Positions 1,632 to 38,063 of a DNA stretch of 38,063 nucleotides are shown here, piece by piece. Location of the stretch: contig JAFWHD010000005.1 of NCBI GenBank assembly GCA_017512085.1, forward strand, positions 1-38,063, given 5' to 3'. The position numbers and the translations under genes are program-made. Under the pieces are notes generated by a model. That model did not search any database and had not been told where the DNA came from. It worked only from the letters and a program-made list of their open reading frames with translations. This DNA is from Candidatus Saccharimonadota bacterium. Lineage in GTDB: Bacteria > Patescibacteriota > Saccharimonadia > Saccharimonadales > Saccharimonadaceae. Within the stretch, counting starts at the first letter, position 1, and every line of letters starts with the position of its first letter.

Positions 1632-3731
1632 TTATTTCCCCATAAATTCTTTGATTTTTTCCACCTCATCCCGAAGTGCAGCTGCTCGCTCAAACTCCAG
1701 ATTCGCCGCCGCAAGTTGCATTTCGGAGGAGAGCTGTTTTACGAGGCCCGGAAGTTCGTCGCGTGGCATTCGCTTAATGTCCAGTTTATCTTCCGCTTCT
1801 TTTTCGGGGATAATCGCTCTAAGCCCCACAGATATTTCCTTTTGCACTGAATGTGGTGTGATATGGTGTTCTTCATTATACTTTTGTTGAATTTCGCGTC
1901 GGCGATTCGTCTCCGTGATGGCTTTTTCCATACTCTCGGTGATAAAATTCGCATACATGATTACCTTCCCTTCCTCATGCCGCGCGGCTCGACCGATAGT
2001 CTGGATGAGCGCTTGTTCACTACGTAGGAATCCTTCCTTGTCTGCGTCAAGTATTGCTACGAGTGACACCTCGGGTAAATCCAATCCCTCCCGAAGTAGA
2101 TTAATCCCGACTAGTACATCATATACTCCCTCCCGCAAATCTCGTAAGATATCTCCTCGCTCTAGAGTATCTATGTCTGAGTGAATATAGGCTGTTTTTA
2201 CTCCTCTTTCCTTTAGATGGTCAGTCAAATCTTCAGCCATTCGCTTCGTGAGAGTCGTGATGAGAGTCCGCTGCCCTTTCGCGATGCGTTTATCTATTTC
2301 CTCCATCAGGTCATCTATTTGTCCATCACTACTCCGTACTTCTATTTCTGGATCCAGTAGTCCCGTCGGGCGAATCACCTGCTCGGCTAGAGGCTTTGGC
2401 GAGACTTCTAATTCGTATTCTCCTGGCGTCGCCGAGACGTAGATTGCCTGATTTATGTGTTTTTGGAACTCACCATAAGTGAGTGGTCGGTTATCCAGGG
2501 CACTAGGCAGACGAAAACCATAATCCACGAGCGCCAGTTTTCGCGCGTGGTCGCCATTATACATTCCTCTCACCTGCGGCAAAGTCATATGCGACTCATC
2601 TACGAGTAACAGCCAGTCCTCTGGGAAAAAATCTAGTAGCGTGGATGGTGGCTCCCCAGGCTGACGTCCCTCCAAGTGCCTAGAATAATTTTCAATTCCC
2701 TTCACGAAGCCTGTCTCCTTGAGCATTTCTAGGTCATATTTCGTTCGCTGAGATAGTCTCTGCGCTTCTAGGTATTTTTCATGTTTTTCAAAATACTTCA
2801 TCCGTTCCTCATATTCGGCACGAATCGTCACGAGCGCCCTCTCCAGCTGGTCTAATGGCGTCGCATAATGGGTATTAGGAAAAATATGAATATGATCAGG
2901 CTTCTCTCGCACTTCTAGTGTAAGGGGATCAACGATTTTTACTTCCTCCAAGATATCAAACGCAAACTCAAATCTATACGCATATTCCCCATTCGCTGGA
3001 AAAAGATCAATTGTATCCCCCATCACGCGGAAATTTCCTCGTTCAAATGCTAGGTCATTGCGGTGATACTGCATATCAACCAGGCTGCGGATAAACTCGT
3101 CCTGCGTTATAGCTCTAGATAAGCCCTCTCCGGACGCGCTTCGTTCGCGCCCGTCGTTACGGGGCTCACTCGCTCGGGGAGCTCCCGTTGTCGCTCCACG
3201 GTCCGGAGAAGACTCATCTAGAGCCACCCTCCATCCATCGCTAGTCCGCCACATCGGCAGCGACATCTCAGCATAATTTGCTGGCGAACCAATGCCATAA
3301 ATACACGACACCGAAGCCACCACGATTACATCTCGCCGCGTGAGCAATGCTTCCGTCGCGGCATGACGTAGTCTATCTATCTCGTCATTTATCGCCGAAT
3401 CCTTCTCAATGTAAGTATCCGTTGATGCGATGTAGGCCTCTGGTTGGTAATAATCAAAGTATGAAACAAAATAATGCACCTCATTTTCTGGGAAAAATTC
3501 CCGAAACTCGGAAAAAAGCTGTGCCGCGAGAGTCTTATTATGTGCGAGAACTAGGGTGGGCCGCTGAGTATTCTGGATAATATTCGCCATCGTAAATGTC
3601 TTTCCTGAGCCAGTCACACCGAGTAGCGTCTGCTCGTGTACTCCGCGCTCTATCCCATCAGTGAGCCGCCGAATCGCTTCTGGCTGGTCTCCTGTCGGCT
3701 GATATTTAGACACTAGTTTAAATTTTTCCAT
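1632..3731 (-). CDS. uvrB: UvrABC system protein B with an in-frame palindromic insertion
   Basis: This is the damage-verification helicase of nucleotide excision repair; it partners UvrA and UvrC in the cytoplasm. Visible are Walker A GVTGSGKT (about residues 39-46), the [15 protein letters not shown] beta-hairpin region, DEIDRLRH, helicase motifs including DESH, YVSATPG and QTIGRAARH, and a C-terminal UVR motif ending [15 protein letters not shown]. At 699 aa it is slightly long. The excess is an Arg/Ser/Gly/Pro-rich stretch at about residues 169-207, encoded by an inverted-repeat element, between NYAEMSLPM and the conserved [11 protein letters not shown] segment. A TATAAT box ends seven bases before the ATG, so the mRNA is probably leaderless. 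It is divergent from greA. Confidence 0.96.
3112..3224. repeat. In-frame palindromic element inside uvrB
   Basis: Nine-base perfect terminal arms (GCTCTAGAT at 3112-3120, ATCTAGAGC at 3216-3224) and second arms TCTCCGGAC/GTCCGGAGA (3127-3135, 3201-3209) define a 113-bp palindromic unit. Its core is more GC-rich than the flanking gene. It keeps the UvrB reading frame and adds about 38 residues where the UvrB family normally has a short loop. No second copy is found in this window. The organisation resembles the Rickettsia palindromic elements, which also insert in frame into genes. Confidence 0.7.
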
Positions 3732-23556: not shown

Positions 23557-23565
23557 TGTTATAAT
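23557..23565 (+). promoter_or_regulatory. Extended -10 promoter of FISUMP copy 2
   Basis: TGTTATAAT, with a weak -35 (TTGCGC, 23536-23541), would start RNA at about 23571-23572. That is exactly the first base of the leader's closing helix. The paralogous promoter at 37773-37781 has the same placement. Confidence 0.7.
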
Positions 23566-23569
23566 AAAA

Positions 23570-23765
23570 GAGCAACGACATTATATATTAAAAGCATACA
23601 AATTTTGTATATAAGTTTGTATCCTGTGTAAAAATGGCGCCATGAGGTGACCTAGCCCAGGATACAAAAGTATGCTTGTGTATAGTGTCGTTGCACCCTC
23701 GTGGTGCCATTTTTATCGAAACTACCGCGAGGACTAGTGCCAAAATAATACGAAAGGACCTCGCG
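23570..23765 (+). ncRNA. Structured 5' leader RNA of FISUMP copy 2 (candidate RNA switch)
   Basis: Nested helices: A, 23572-23585 with 23681-23694 (14 bp, one G-T); C, 23592-23599 with 23670-23677 (8 bp); D, 23616-23626 with 23658-23668 (11 bp). The apical loop contains 23630-23647, which can pair with 23697-23714 just 3' of helix A (18 positions, two wobble pairs), ending in TTTTT. The short linkers make full coexistence with A-C-D sterically unlikely, so this looks like two alternative folds. A further hairpin, CGCGAGG (23726-23732) with CCTCGCG (23759-23765), has AAAGGA in its loop and touches the ATG. The same architecture with different helix sequences occurs at 37788-37990. Confidence 0.75.
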
Positions 23766-25607
23766 ATGAGTGAAAGAAGAATTAAACAAGCAAGTCTGGG
23801 AGCTACTATATATAATATATATAGTAAAATATCACACCAGTCTAGTAAAAGTACTAGTAGTAAAAAGAGCAGAAATAAACGAGACATTATTTCTGCTCCG
23901 CCGTATAGCGAGTTCCCGGCTGCTACTAGTACTTTTAGTGGACTGGCGATACTATTCTCTCTTTTTCTAGGATTTCTGGGAGTAAGTAATACTTATGCTA
24001 GTAGCATTAGTATTTCACTCACTGGCAATGTAAATCTAAACATACTAAAAGACAACACTAATCCTACCTTTGGCAAATCCACTACTCAGACTGCCACAGT
24101 AACTAGCGATCACTTTACTGGCTACACATTAACTATAGCAGGCTCTAATGATACTGGAAGATTAGTAGGCAGTAATGACTCTACCAAATATCTAAGCTCT
24201 ATTACCACTCCACTCACAGAATCACAATTTAATACAGACGCCCATAATGATCAGTGGGGATTCCTACCTAGTAAGTTAAACAGTATTACGAATAATAGCT
24301 ATCAACCTTCCCCCACTGCTACCACACCTACCACGATAGATGTAACGAATAGTCCCACTACTGGCGAAAATTACACTCTAGCCTTAGCGGCGAGAGTGAG
24401 CAGTAATATGTCATTAGATTCCTACGGGCAAACCTTTGTCCTAGCAGCTACTGGGAATGGGTATGATTATCATATTGGCTATACGGATAATATGACTACA
24501 ATACCAAAAGACCAATATGCAACTAGTGCGGCAGAGGGGACGGTTCAATTATCATCTACTATACCTACTAAAGCTGGTTTTGTCTTCCGGGGTTGGTGCA
24601 GCCAGGAAACTAGTGTGGATATAATAAATGGGACTACATGTCCTAATGGAGCTACCGTCTATCAGCCAGGTGCAACGATTACGCTGGATGGAACATCTGC
24701 AAACAACCTGCTCCTTTATGCGATATGGGATAAAGGCTACAACACCTTCGCTGATGCCTTCGCGGCATTTAATAAAGAAAAATCTGGCGATTATTATCAA
24801 ATGCAAGACATGACACCAGAAATCTGTGATAGCATCGTTATCGGCTCTCCTTACACCACAGCAGACATTGCAAAGAATACTTTAATAGACACAAGAAACA
24901 GCAAAACCTACCTCGTCGCGAAATACGCTGACGGCCATTGCTGGATGCGTGAGAATCTAAATTATGTCTTCACAGCAGGTGGCACCGTAGTAGCTTACAA
25001 CTTCCAAACTGGCGAGACCTTTAATTATACTACCACTTATGCTACCCAGACCGAAACTGACACTCCCTGGGCTGAGGATGCCAGCGATGGCGCACGTTCC
25101 TTTAAGCGAGATGAAGATCTTTGTATCGGCGGTACAGACATTAATACCTCCGGCGGTACTGGCGCTACTTGTGATGCTTCTAGACCTTACGAACGTATTG
25201 GCGTATTGTATAACTGGGCAGCAGCCACGGCACAGACGAAGGATGATAATCCCCAGGATAAAACCAGCGAGGTAACTACGTCCATTTGTCCGAAGGGTTG
25301 GAGACTTCCATCTATTGGTGGCGACTACTCATTTAGCACTTTAATGGGTAGCTATAGCTTACCTACGACTAACCAATCCCAAGGTTATTCTGGACAATTA
25401 CAGAATCCACTAAACTTCAATCGCCCCGGCAACTACAACTGGAGTAACGGCGCGCTGTACTACAGGGGCACGGGTGGCTACTTTTGGTCCTCTGTGGGCT
25501 ATAGTTCCGCCGGCGCGTACGACCTCGGCTTCTACTCCAGCTACTTCGACCCGCAGTCTGGTAGCAACAAGGGCAACGGCTTGTCGGTCCGTTGTGTGGC
25601 GGTCTGA
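23766..25607 (+). CDS. FISUMP-domain secreted surface protein (copy 2, complete)
   Basis: The 613-aa product starts at 23766 (MSERRIKQ), because the identical start and AAAGGA site recur in copy 3; an upstream in-frame ATG at 23676 lies inside the leader. A basic N-region of about 55 residues precedes a hydrophobic helix (58-73) and a likely cleavage after TYA (about 78). Residues 80-255 form an unrecognised Thr/Ser/Asn-rich beta region (SISLTGNVNLNIL). A Listeria-Bacteroides repeat spans about 257-325 (GFVFRGWC, YQPGATITLDG). A FISUMP domain runs from about 325 to 613 (KTYLVAKYADGHCWMREN, CPKGWRLP, GGYFWSSVGYSS, SVRCVAV). Residues 549-613 are the putative DGR-diversified face. A lectin-like ligand-binding role is inferred. 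No sortase motif is seen. Confidence 0.9.
   Translation: MSERRIKQASLGATIYNIYSKISHQSSKSTSSKKSRNKRDIISAPPYSEFPAATSTFSGLAILFSLFLGFLGVSNTYASSISISLTGNVNLNILKDNTNPTFGKSTTQTATVTSDHFTGYTLTIAGSNDTGRLVGSNDSTKYLSSITTPLTESQFNTDAHNDQWGFLPSKLNSITNNSYQPSPTATTPTTIDVTNSPTTGENYTLALAARVSSNMSLDSYGQTFVLAATGNGYDYHIGYTDNMTTIPKDQYATSAAEGTVQLSSTIPTKAGFVFRGWCSQETSVDIINGTTCPNGATVYQPGATITLDGTSANNLLLYAIWDKGYNTFADAFAAFNKEKSGDYYQMQDMTPEICDSIVIGSPYTTADIAKNTLIDTRNSKTYLVAKYADGHCWMRENLNYVFTAGGTVVAYNFQTGETFNYTTTYATQTETDTPWAEDASDGARSFKRDEDLCIGGTDINTSGGTGATCDASRPYERIGVLYNWAAATAQTKDDNPQDKTSEVTTSICPKGWRLPSIGGDYSFSTLMGSYSLPTTNQSQGYSGQLQNPLNFNRPGNYNWSNGALYYRGTGGYFWSSVGYSSAGAYDLGFYSSYFDPQSGSNKGNGLSVRCVAV
25410..25605 (+). other. Putative DGR variable region (VR) of FISUMP copy 2
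   Basis: It is 196 bases long, ungapped and matched to 915-1110. Compared pairs include TAC/AAC, ACC/AAC, GAC/TAC, GGC/TAC, CTC/GGC and CTC/AAC, always with C kept at the third position. No synonymous change occurs in 65 codons, whereas about 10 occur in the 27 codons just upstream. The inferred template would carry mostly AAC at variable codons. Confidence 0.72.
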
Positions 25608-37575: not shown

Positions 37576-37666
37576 TGGTGCACGCGACTGGACTTGAACC
37601 AGCACAGCCGTTAGTGTGGCCACTACCACCTCAAGGTAGCGTGTCTACCAATTCCACCACGCGTGC
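37576..37666 (-). tRNA. tRNA-Leu (anticodon GAG)
   Basis: The acceptor stem GCACGCG/CGCGTGC, D-arm GGTGGAATTGGTAGACACGC, anticodon stem CTACC/GGTAG with loop TTGAGGT (anticodon GAG), and T-arm CTGGTTCAAGTCCAG fit a class II tRNA. The long variable arm is typical of leucine. Discriminator A and CCA are encoded (37576-37579). It decodes CUC/CUU. It is transcribed from a TGTTATAAT box (37675-37683). Confidence 0.95.
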
Positions 37667-37772: not shown

Positions 37773-37781
37773 TGTTATACT
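37773..37781 (+). promoter_or_regulatory. Extended -10 promoter of FISUMP copy 3
   Basis: TGTTATACT is placed so that the start site (about 37788) coincides with the first base of the leader helix, as in copy 2. Confidence 0.65.
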
Positions 37782-37787
37782 TATATT

Positions 37788-37990
37788 GCAACAGCTTTAT
37801 ATTTTATATAATACTAAGTATTTTATACATTGTTTAGTTTAATGAGAAAAATGGCACCAAGAGGAAAGCCTAAATTCTTATTAAGCTAAACTTAGTATGA
37901 ATTATAAAGCTGTTGCACCCTCGTGGTGCCATTTTTGTAGATATATGTGGCTCGCGAGGAAAAGTCAACATAATACGAAAGGACCTCGCG
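37788..37990 (+). ncRNA. Structured 5' leader RNA of FISUMP copy 3
   Basis: Helix A is 37788-37800 with 37904-37916 (13 bp). Helix C is 37811-37817 with 37892-37898 (7 bp). Helix D is 37832-37843 with 37880-37891 (12 bp, one G-T). Apical-loop bases 37847-37864 can pair with 37919-37936 (17 of 18). The CGCGAGG/CCTCGCG hairpin (37953-37959, 37984-37990) again frames the Shine-Dalgarno and abuts the ATG. Helices A, C and D have different sequences from copy 2 but pair equally well, while the 3' segment GCACCCTCGTGGTGCCATTT is identical. Confidence 0.75.
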
Positions 37991-38063
37991 ATGAGTGGAA
38001 GAAAAATTAAACAAGCAAGTCTGGGAGCTACTATATATAATATATATAGTAAAATATCACACC
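37991..38063 (+). CDS. FISUMP-family surface protein, first codons (copy 3, truncated by window end)
   Basis: Only 24 codons are visible. They start MSGRKIKQASLGATIYNIYS, nearly identical to copy 2 (MSERRIKQASLGATIYNIYS) in protein and DNA, and continue past the window. Identity of leader architecture, ribosome site and N-terminus makes this a third paralogue; whether it carries the FISUMP domain and variable region cannot be seen. Confidence 0.8.
   Translation, partial: MSGRKIKQASLGATIYNIYSKISH

Follow-up and report, generated by a model that had tools for sequence, protein, structure and literature searches.

Multi-copy surface-protein families undergoing antigenic variation include vlhA and vsp of Mycoplasma, vls of Borrelia and VSG of trypanosomes, whereas the structured leaders that regulate genes in cis include attenuators, T-box elements and pseudoknot riboswitches. 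Diversity-generating retroelements (DGRs) are characterized by a reverse transcriptase (RT) with the motif IGxxxSQ and by accessory proteins of the Avd or HRDC type. Cultivated Saccharibacteria live on other bacteria, and retroelements in lineages of this group are reportedly the subject of a 2017 paper. Passages of PMC4159848 place Fib_succ_major (the FISUMP domain) among the DGR targets and describe several distant targets per genome, the target domains being listed again in a passage of PMC8934634; passages of PMC8144416 deal with the DGRs of Patescibacteria, describe a DGR clade confined to that group and suggest that DGR targets undergo intragenic recombination. Our literature search, which left most subscription papers outside its reach, returned nothing that links Saccharibacteria to FISUMP, pseudoknots or gene conversion, or FISUMP to the term diversity-generating.

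We analyzed a stretch of 38,063 nucleotides (the window) from a Candidatus Saccharimonadota bacterium, which constitutes contig C29 of a draft genome of 696,564 bases (0.70 Mb) in 42 contigs. An earlier reading made from the letters alone (hereafter the sequence-only reading) had recognized three surface-protein loci in it, spaced by about 12 and 22 kb, and had described copies 2 and 3 as sharing an extended -10 element, a leader and an N-terminus. This description of the window, including the spacing, is borne out. FISUMP genes at 3-1112 and 23766-25607 score above the Pfam cut-off and thus belong to the family (cut-offs: PF09603, 33.9 bits; TIGR02145, 41.65 bits), while the third locus (about 37776-38063) comprises only a promoter, a leader and the first codons, after which the contig ends. 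The -10 elements of copies 2 and 3 read TGnTATAAT and TGnTATACT, their leader hairpins begin 5-6 nt past the -10 box (stem P1 from 23572 and 37787) and are combined in both with the segments S2a and S2b, and the N-termini are near-identical from the ATG at 23766 and 37991. A leader of copy 1, if present, falls beyond the contig edge. The features are as follows:

3-1112, + strand: copy 1 FISUMP protein, its 5′ part beyond the contig (PF09603, 46.6 bits, cut-off 33.9)
932-1107, + strand: copy 1 variable repeat (L061), with changes at 20 of the 47 template adenines and at 1 of the 129 other sites
23557-23565, + strand: copy 2 extended -10 element, TGTTATAAT, read from the sequence
23572-23694, + strand: copy 2 leader hairpin with a 17-bp P1 (fold -52.5 kcal/mol)
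23572-23588 and 23678-23694, + strand: copy 2 P1 arms
23630-23647, + strand: copy 2 S2a in the hairpin top, paired with S2b at 18 of 18 positions
23697-23714, + strand: copy 2 S2b with U-tract
23723-23732, + strand: copy 2 S3a, which may pair with S2b in place of S2a (10 pairs)
23766-25607, + strand: copy 2 complete FISUMP protein of 613 aa (PF09603, 40.5 bits; TIGR02145, 55.7 bits)
25427-25602, + strand: copy 2 variable repeat (L060), with changes at 18 of the 47 template adenines and at 2 of the 129 other sites
37773-37781, + strand: copy 3 extended -10 element, TGTTATACT, read from the sequence
37787-37917, + strand: copy 3 leader hairpin with a 15-bp P1 (fold -50.6 kcal/mol)
37787-37801 and 37903-37917, + strand: copy 3 P1 arms
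37847-37864, + strand: copy 3 S2a, 17 of 18 pairs with S2b
37919-37936, + strand: copy 3 S2b with U-tract
37952-37959, + strand: copy 3 S3a, 8 pairs with S2b
37991-38063, + strand: copy 3 first codons, truncated at the contig end, with N-terminal DNA like that of the other copies

The S3a segments of copies 2 and 3 are also complementary in sequence to a CCTCGCG motif adjoining the start codon (23759-23765 and 37984-37990, respectively). Elsewhere in the window, a tRNA gene (37579-37666, minus strand) is located just 5′ of the third leader, two tRNAs also being found 5′ of the leader of locus L161, and a GC-rich palindromic stretch at 3121-3230 within the uvrB frame (1632-3731, minus strand) may be a repeat inserted in frame.

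DNA and motif searches of the source genome recovered 20 promoter-leader cassettes with the hairpin, S2a and S2b, which disposes of the possibility that the genome contains only the few copies seen in the window. The genes behind these leaders encode secreted FISUMP proteins of two N-terminal types, the second of which (on C41 and at one C35 locus) features a longer 5′ UTR. Seventeen of the 20 leaders lie at most 726 nt from a contig end on their downstream side, and the window ends where it does because the assembly breaks at the repeated family genes. Each of the 20 leaders has a separate promoter; hence, the genome shows no counterpart of one expression site fed by silent donors. The secreted family, dispersed and headed by a common leader, that the sequence-only reading had proposed is, with 15 retroelement-diversified repeats in addition to its 20 leaders, far larger than could be seen from three loci. 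The likeness to antigenic-variation families that it had drawn also stands with respect to diversification, which is real and of two kinds: repeats diversified by a DGR and sites whose resident family member differs between related genomes. That reading mentioned neither the retroelement nor the copy-specific stem of the leader nor the exchange of genes.

The first kind of diversification is centered on a 392-aa RT ORF on contig C24, which contains a PF00078 match (C24:15383-16000) along with the motifs IGNLSSQ and YVDD. The adjoining template repeat (C24:14984-15169) matches 15 further places in the genome, two of which are in the window's FISUMP genes. Across these 15 variable repeats, no two of which are identical, 289 of 705 template adenines are changed versus 96 of 1935 other sites (p 4e-105). 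The DGR-type RT, the template and variable repeats and the adenine-focused mismatches together place this system among the DGRs. The template repeat (L059) is on the strand opposite the RT gene, beside the 3′ end of the latter, and a 350-aa ORF just 5′ of the RT (L059:2492-3544, minus strand), for which neither Pfam nor NCBIfam gave a match, may encode an accessory protein. In both leader genes whose full length could be read and compared, namely copy 2 of the window and that of the second leader on C35, the leader and a variable repeat belong to one gene. Six other leader-bearing genomes display a template-variable repeat pair near the RT, the best alignment of each differing at 20-35 adenines and at 0-1 other sites; in four of the six (G080, G088, G124 and G127), we compared the dispersed genes behind leaders, and these are not recent DGR targets, unlike the repeat near the RT. 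PF00078 matches are found in 18 of 18 genomes with a strict version of the leader pattern versus 52 of 100 without it, a count that ignores kinship and relies on a pattern that misses variants.

The leader hairpin is beyond chance: its stem P1, which spans 14-21 bp in the source genome, measures 11-23 bp (median 18) in a set of 58 leaders, whereas the same search applied to 1160 dinucleotide shuffles gave stems with a median of 6 bp that never exceeded 17, a control that matters because P1 was picked as the longest stem. The hairpin energies of these leaders have a median z of -9.3 (range -13.9 to -5.2), and in 41 of the 58 the hairpin begins 4-6 nt past the -10 box. Since the stems have no common sequence to align, we replaced a covariance model with tests of own versus swapped partners. 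With 14 bp considered per leader, the P1 arms pair at 99.1% with their own partners versus 46.5% over 3306 swaps, and the 5′ arms show 37% identity between copies, i.e., the arm sequences are unrelated yet always self-pairing. A strand-symmetric count of wobbles in the P1 stems yields 40 G·T versus 10 A·C in the source genome (p 2e-5) and 219 versus 115 in 127 leaders (p 1e-8), an excess that places selection on the strand being transcribed. In the 57 of 58 leaders that could be parsed (one was left unparsed), the gap on the 5′ side of the hairpin always exceeds that on the 3′ side; the pairs around S2a number 39 in the median, and the median 5′-side gap is 17 nt. A full S2a:S2b helix atop an intact hairpin of about 39 pairs would be sterically demanding, and the bulge may permit the hairpin to fold back. 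A fold-back geometry in which the pairs below minus those above the bulge approximate the S2 length of about 18 found no support in a simple length test, the difference being 8.1 bp (sd 7.9) in 57 leaders. A reading of S2a and S2b as an invertible element was dropped, the P1 arms being inverted in all 20 copies. Rfam returned no leader match in the window, and a permissive search (E<=5) of seven loci gave only weak miRNA-type and unrelated models at the leader; as far as these and the literature searches show, the leader would be an undescribed structured RNA.

The S2a segment in the hairpin top pairs with S2b, directly 3′ of the hairpin. The 20 source-genome leaders, which were recruited via S2b and the coding start without use of S2a, form 15.7 of 18 Watson-Crick pairs between their own S2a and S2b versus 14.1 of 18 between swapped ones, and none of 20000 permutations reaches the observed value; thus, pairing in cis is what selection keeps. 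One position of this helix is G-C in 10 and A-T in 10 of these leaders with no mismatch, and the same position is A-T in 88, G-C in 23, G-T in 13 and A-C in three of 127 distinct leaders, a set in which the search patterns constrained other positions. Taken together, the comparisons show that the S2a:S2b and P1 pairings are maintained at the RNA level. These data also bear on the mutually exclusive expression envisaged by the sequence-only reading. The common leader could in principle allow one member at a time, e.g., by trans pairing of S2a and S2b between transcripts. S2a and S2b are indeed alike in all copies, so that swapped combinations in the 20 leaders still attain 16.4 of 18 pairs when G·U is counted, but the significantly better fit of own partners and the separate promoter and leader of each copy make such exclusion decidedly improbable.

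Beyond pairing in cis with S2a, S2b potentially has a second partner: when the 3′ part of the leader is folded alone, S2b is predicted to pair downstream in 103 of 109 leaders. The C41 leader contains an 18-base complement of S2b ending 86 nt beyond it, and leaders of the G080 type display AGTGGCACCACA ahead of the Shine-Dalgarno sequence; in the source genome, the covariation of S3a with S2b is weak. Locking S2b in the modeled pseudoknot shifts the accessibility of the start site from 0.52 to 0.50 (p 0.015; lower in 34 and higher in 20 of 109 leaders), a change small enough that it argues only faintly for a translational switch. A riboswitch or T-box-like device, in which a ligand or tRNA binds S2a or a UGGNACC-like S3a and frees the ribosome site, would account for the two alternative partners of S2b and for the UGGCACC found within the S3a of many leaders. 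We nevertheless consider it quite improbable, given that the permissive Rfam search of the seven loci found no T-box or other riboswitch match at the leader, that S2a often has CGG, which breaks the UGGN motif, and that the predicted effect on the start site is small. Membership in the T-box class itself is rejected, with no Rfam match and a UGGN that is not invariant. A SAM riboswitch (RF00162, 56.8 bits) is present elsewhere in the source genome, on contig C27 (L012:417-510, minus strand). Over the five bases of the U-tract that follows S2b, all but one of the 100 cells in the source genome are T, and its two positions unconstrained by the search pattern are T in 53 of 53 other leaders, a near-invariance that fits a terminator-like role. 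In the C22 leader, however, the U-tract is altered together with a compensating change in S2a, which favors a structural role over that of a terminator. Comparative evidence supports the structure of the leader well, and its function is inferred.

The second kind of diversification emerged from the comparison of G080, G088, G124 and G127, whose orthologous sites were matched by up to 215 nt 5′ of the promoter (five of 57 loci without a recognized leader or promoter were left out), resulting in 35 pairs. Genes were compared in the 15 pairs in which both are complete, the 20 others being left out. At 14 of these 15 sites, the gene has a better partner elsewhere in the other genome, with some of the 14 near-tied, e.g., L143/L147 (52.7% here versus 53.4% elsewhere); the one pair keeping its gene is L141/L167, at 80%. 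At L144/L166 (G088/G127), for example, flanks 96% identical upstream and 91% downstream enclose proteins that are 37% identical, versus 69% at another site. The upstream flank is orthologous in 15 of 15 pairs (85-100%) and the downstream flank in 12 of 15 where found (80-97%). Along the aligned sites, identity falls from about 95-100% to about 50% shortly past S2b and rises again near or beyond the stop codon, with no common site for the 3′ exchange boundary in eight pairs. These comparisons show genes swapped between fixed sites by recombination. That the exchange is an artefact of assembly at repeats is very unlikely: although family copies do break contigs, as the crowding of source-genome leaders at contig ends attests, a single mis-join does not suffice to explain different genes between two orthologous flanks, and two errors per site would be required in the compared genomes. 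As a separate observation, the leaders of L135 (G080) and L152 (G088) are 98.8% identical while their upstream flanks are unrelated, and the promoter and leader may have moved context.

The hairpin itself occurs as discrete alleles at these sites. Its inner part is nearly identical in 13 of the 35 pairs (0.90-1.00), sometimes above the identity of the flanks, and replaced in the other 22, where the inner 5′ arms average an identity of 0.41 amid upstream flanks averaging 94% and S2a/S2b segments averaging 97%. In all 22 replaced pairs, which share genomes and are not 22 independent events, own arms fold better than crossed ones (-25.7 versus -10.6 kcal/mol on average), and in some pairs P1 is retained and the inner part alone replaced. 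To our knowledge, there is no established explanation for the block replacement of a self-complementary stem at conserved sites. Discrete, paralogue-specific and self-complementary hairpin alleles are to be expected if selection disfavors pairing with the stems of other family transcripts.

Among 118 genomes of the genus, 18, the source included, contain the strict leader pattern, with 19 places in G080, and the backward control of this pattern had no hits; copy 2, used as a protein query against named genomes, detected no relative. A similar pattern run over a collection of 84,980 species detected 95 loci, and over viral contigs none. Eighty-six of these loci are in records labelled Saccharibacteria and the other nine (L203, L217, L219, L232, L240, L242, L257, L272 and L273) in rabbit-gut assemblies labelled, as binned, Oscillospiraceae, Clostridia, Dysosmobacter or Bacilli. 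Of the 127 distinct leaders, we left out 44 with less than 1.5 kb downstream and six with a cut gene; 72 of the remaining 77, in which the downstream gene is complete or absent, are followed by a FISUMP-type C-terminus, and two of the five exceptions are loci from rabbit gut that have no intact FISUMP end. The rabbit-gut loci mostly feature a FISUMP-type gene, and a long frame with a serine-recombinase motif is found in six of the nine and in no other locus (up to 8 kb examined). In L232, two tandem large serine recombinases are accompanied by the leader and a FISUMP gene, which are bracketed by 65-bp direct repeats, and by another protein, predicted to be secreted, that matches no Pfam family. 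The eight rabbit-gut genomes searched are of 1.9-3.2 Mb and have one leader locus each, except for G143 with two, and in these loci both parts are on single contigs. The presence of leader and gene in Firmicutes-labelled assemblies suggests transfer between phyla, and the rabbit-gut loci look like a mobile element crossing them.

With these data at hand, we considered whether the hairpin could be a DNA feature without a role in RNA, i.e., an attC-like folded recombination site or a palindrome perfected by template switching. Several observations are compatible with this: the variable stem is flanked by conserved ends, hairpins are exchanged as blocks, the loss of identity at orthologous sites begins near S2b and serine recombinases accompany leader and gene in most of the rabbit-gut loci. 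We nonetheless regard it as unlikely because the transcribed strand is richer in G·T than in A·C, the hairpin onset is in most leaders set just past the -10 box, no serine-recombinase motif was seen in the Saccharibacteria loci examined and the eight pairs lack a common 3′ exchange boundary.

We propose, as a probable though by no means settled reading, a multi-locus surface-variation system that combines a DGR and gene exchange with uniform leader control. In this system, about 20 secreted FISUMP proteins would be expressed from dispersed fixed sites, each from its separate promoter, and the repertoire would be renewed both by the DGR rewriting the C-terminal faces, as seen in the source genome, and by recombination moving genes between sites, as seen between the related genomes. 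Every transcript would open with a 5′-terminal hairpin of about 39 pairs with a large 5′-side bulge, which most likely folds during transcription and protects the 5′ end. S2a in its top loop would pair with S2b just past the hairpin, closing a pseudoknot-like or terminator-like helix directly followed by UUUUU, and this helix would set the number of polymerases or ribosomes that pass; the downstream S3a would usually compete for S2b and, in full-length messages, serve as its alternative partner. The leader would thereby act as a uniform gain control on all members rather than as a one-at-a-time switch, and we infer that its role is most likely one of shared co- or post-transcriptional control. 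That a reduced genome sustains about 20 loci for a doubly renewed surface family points to a likely layer of recognition or evasion. More tentatively, and with considerable doubt, the leader might represent a new class of mRNA element, with a conserved pairing core and an exchangeable identity stem, in a combinatorial surface display whose variety is the product of site identity, gene cassette and hypermutated face and which has spread to other phyla too.

How this system relates to those already described can be summarized along four lines. With integron attC sites, the leader shares conserved ends and a stem that is variable in sequence yet kept in structure, but it is positioned between promoter and gene, and its strand asymmetry indicates RNA. 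With structured cis-regulatory leaders, it shares competing 1:2 and 2:3 pairings and a GC-rich helix followed by U5; it differs from them in having no Rfam match and in a stem that is unrelated between paralogues and block-replaced between species. The family resembles those undergoing antigenic variation in its multi-copy surface genes, common 5′ sequence and recombination between copies, whereas here each leader has a separate promoter, no silent archive was seen and an RT also diversifies the genes. Finally, it is like multi-target DGRs in its RT with IGNLSSQ and YVDD, the adjoining template repeat and the adenine-specific variation of the FISUMP C-terminus, and is set apart from them by 15 variable repeats in 0.7 Mb, a common structured leader and, in its relatives, the exchange of genes.
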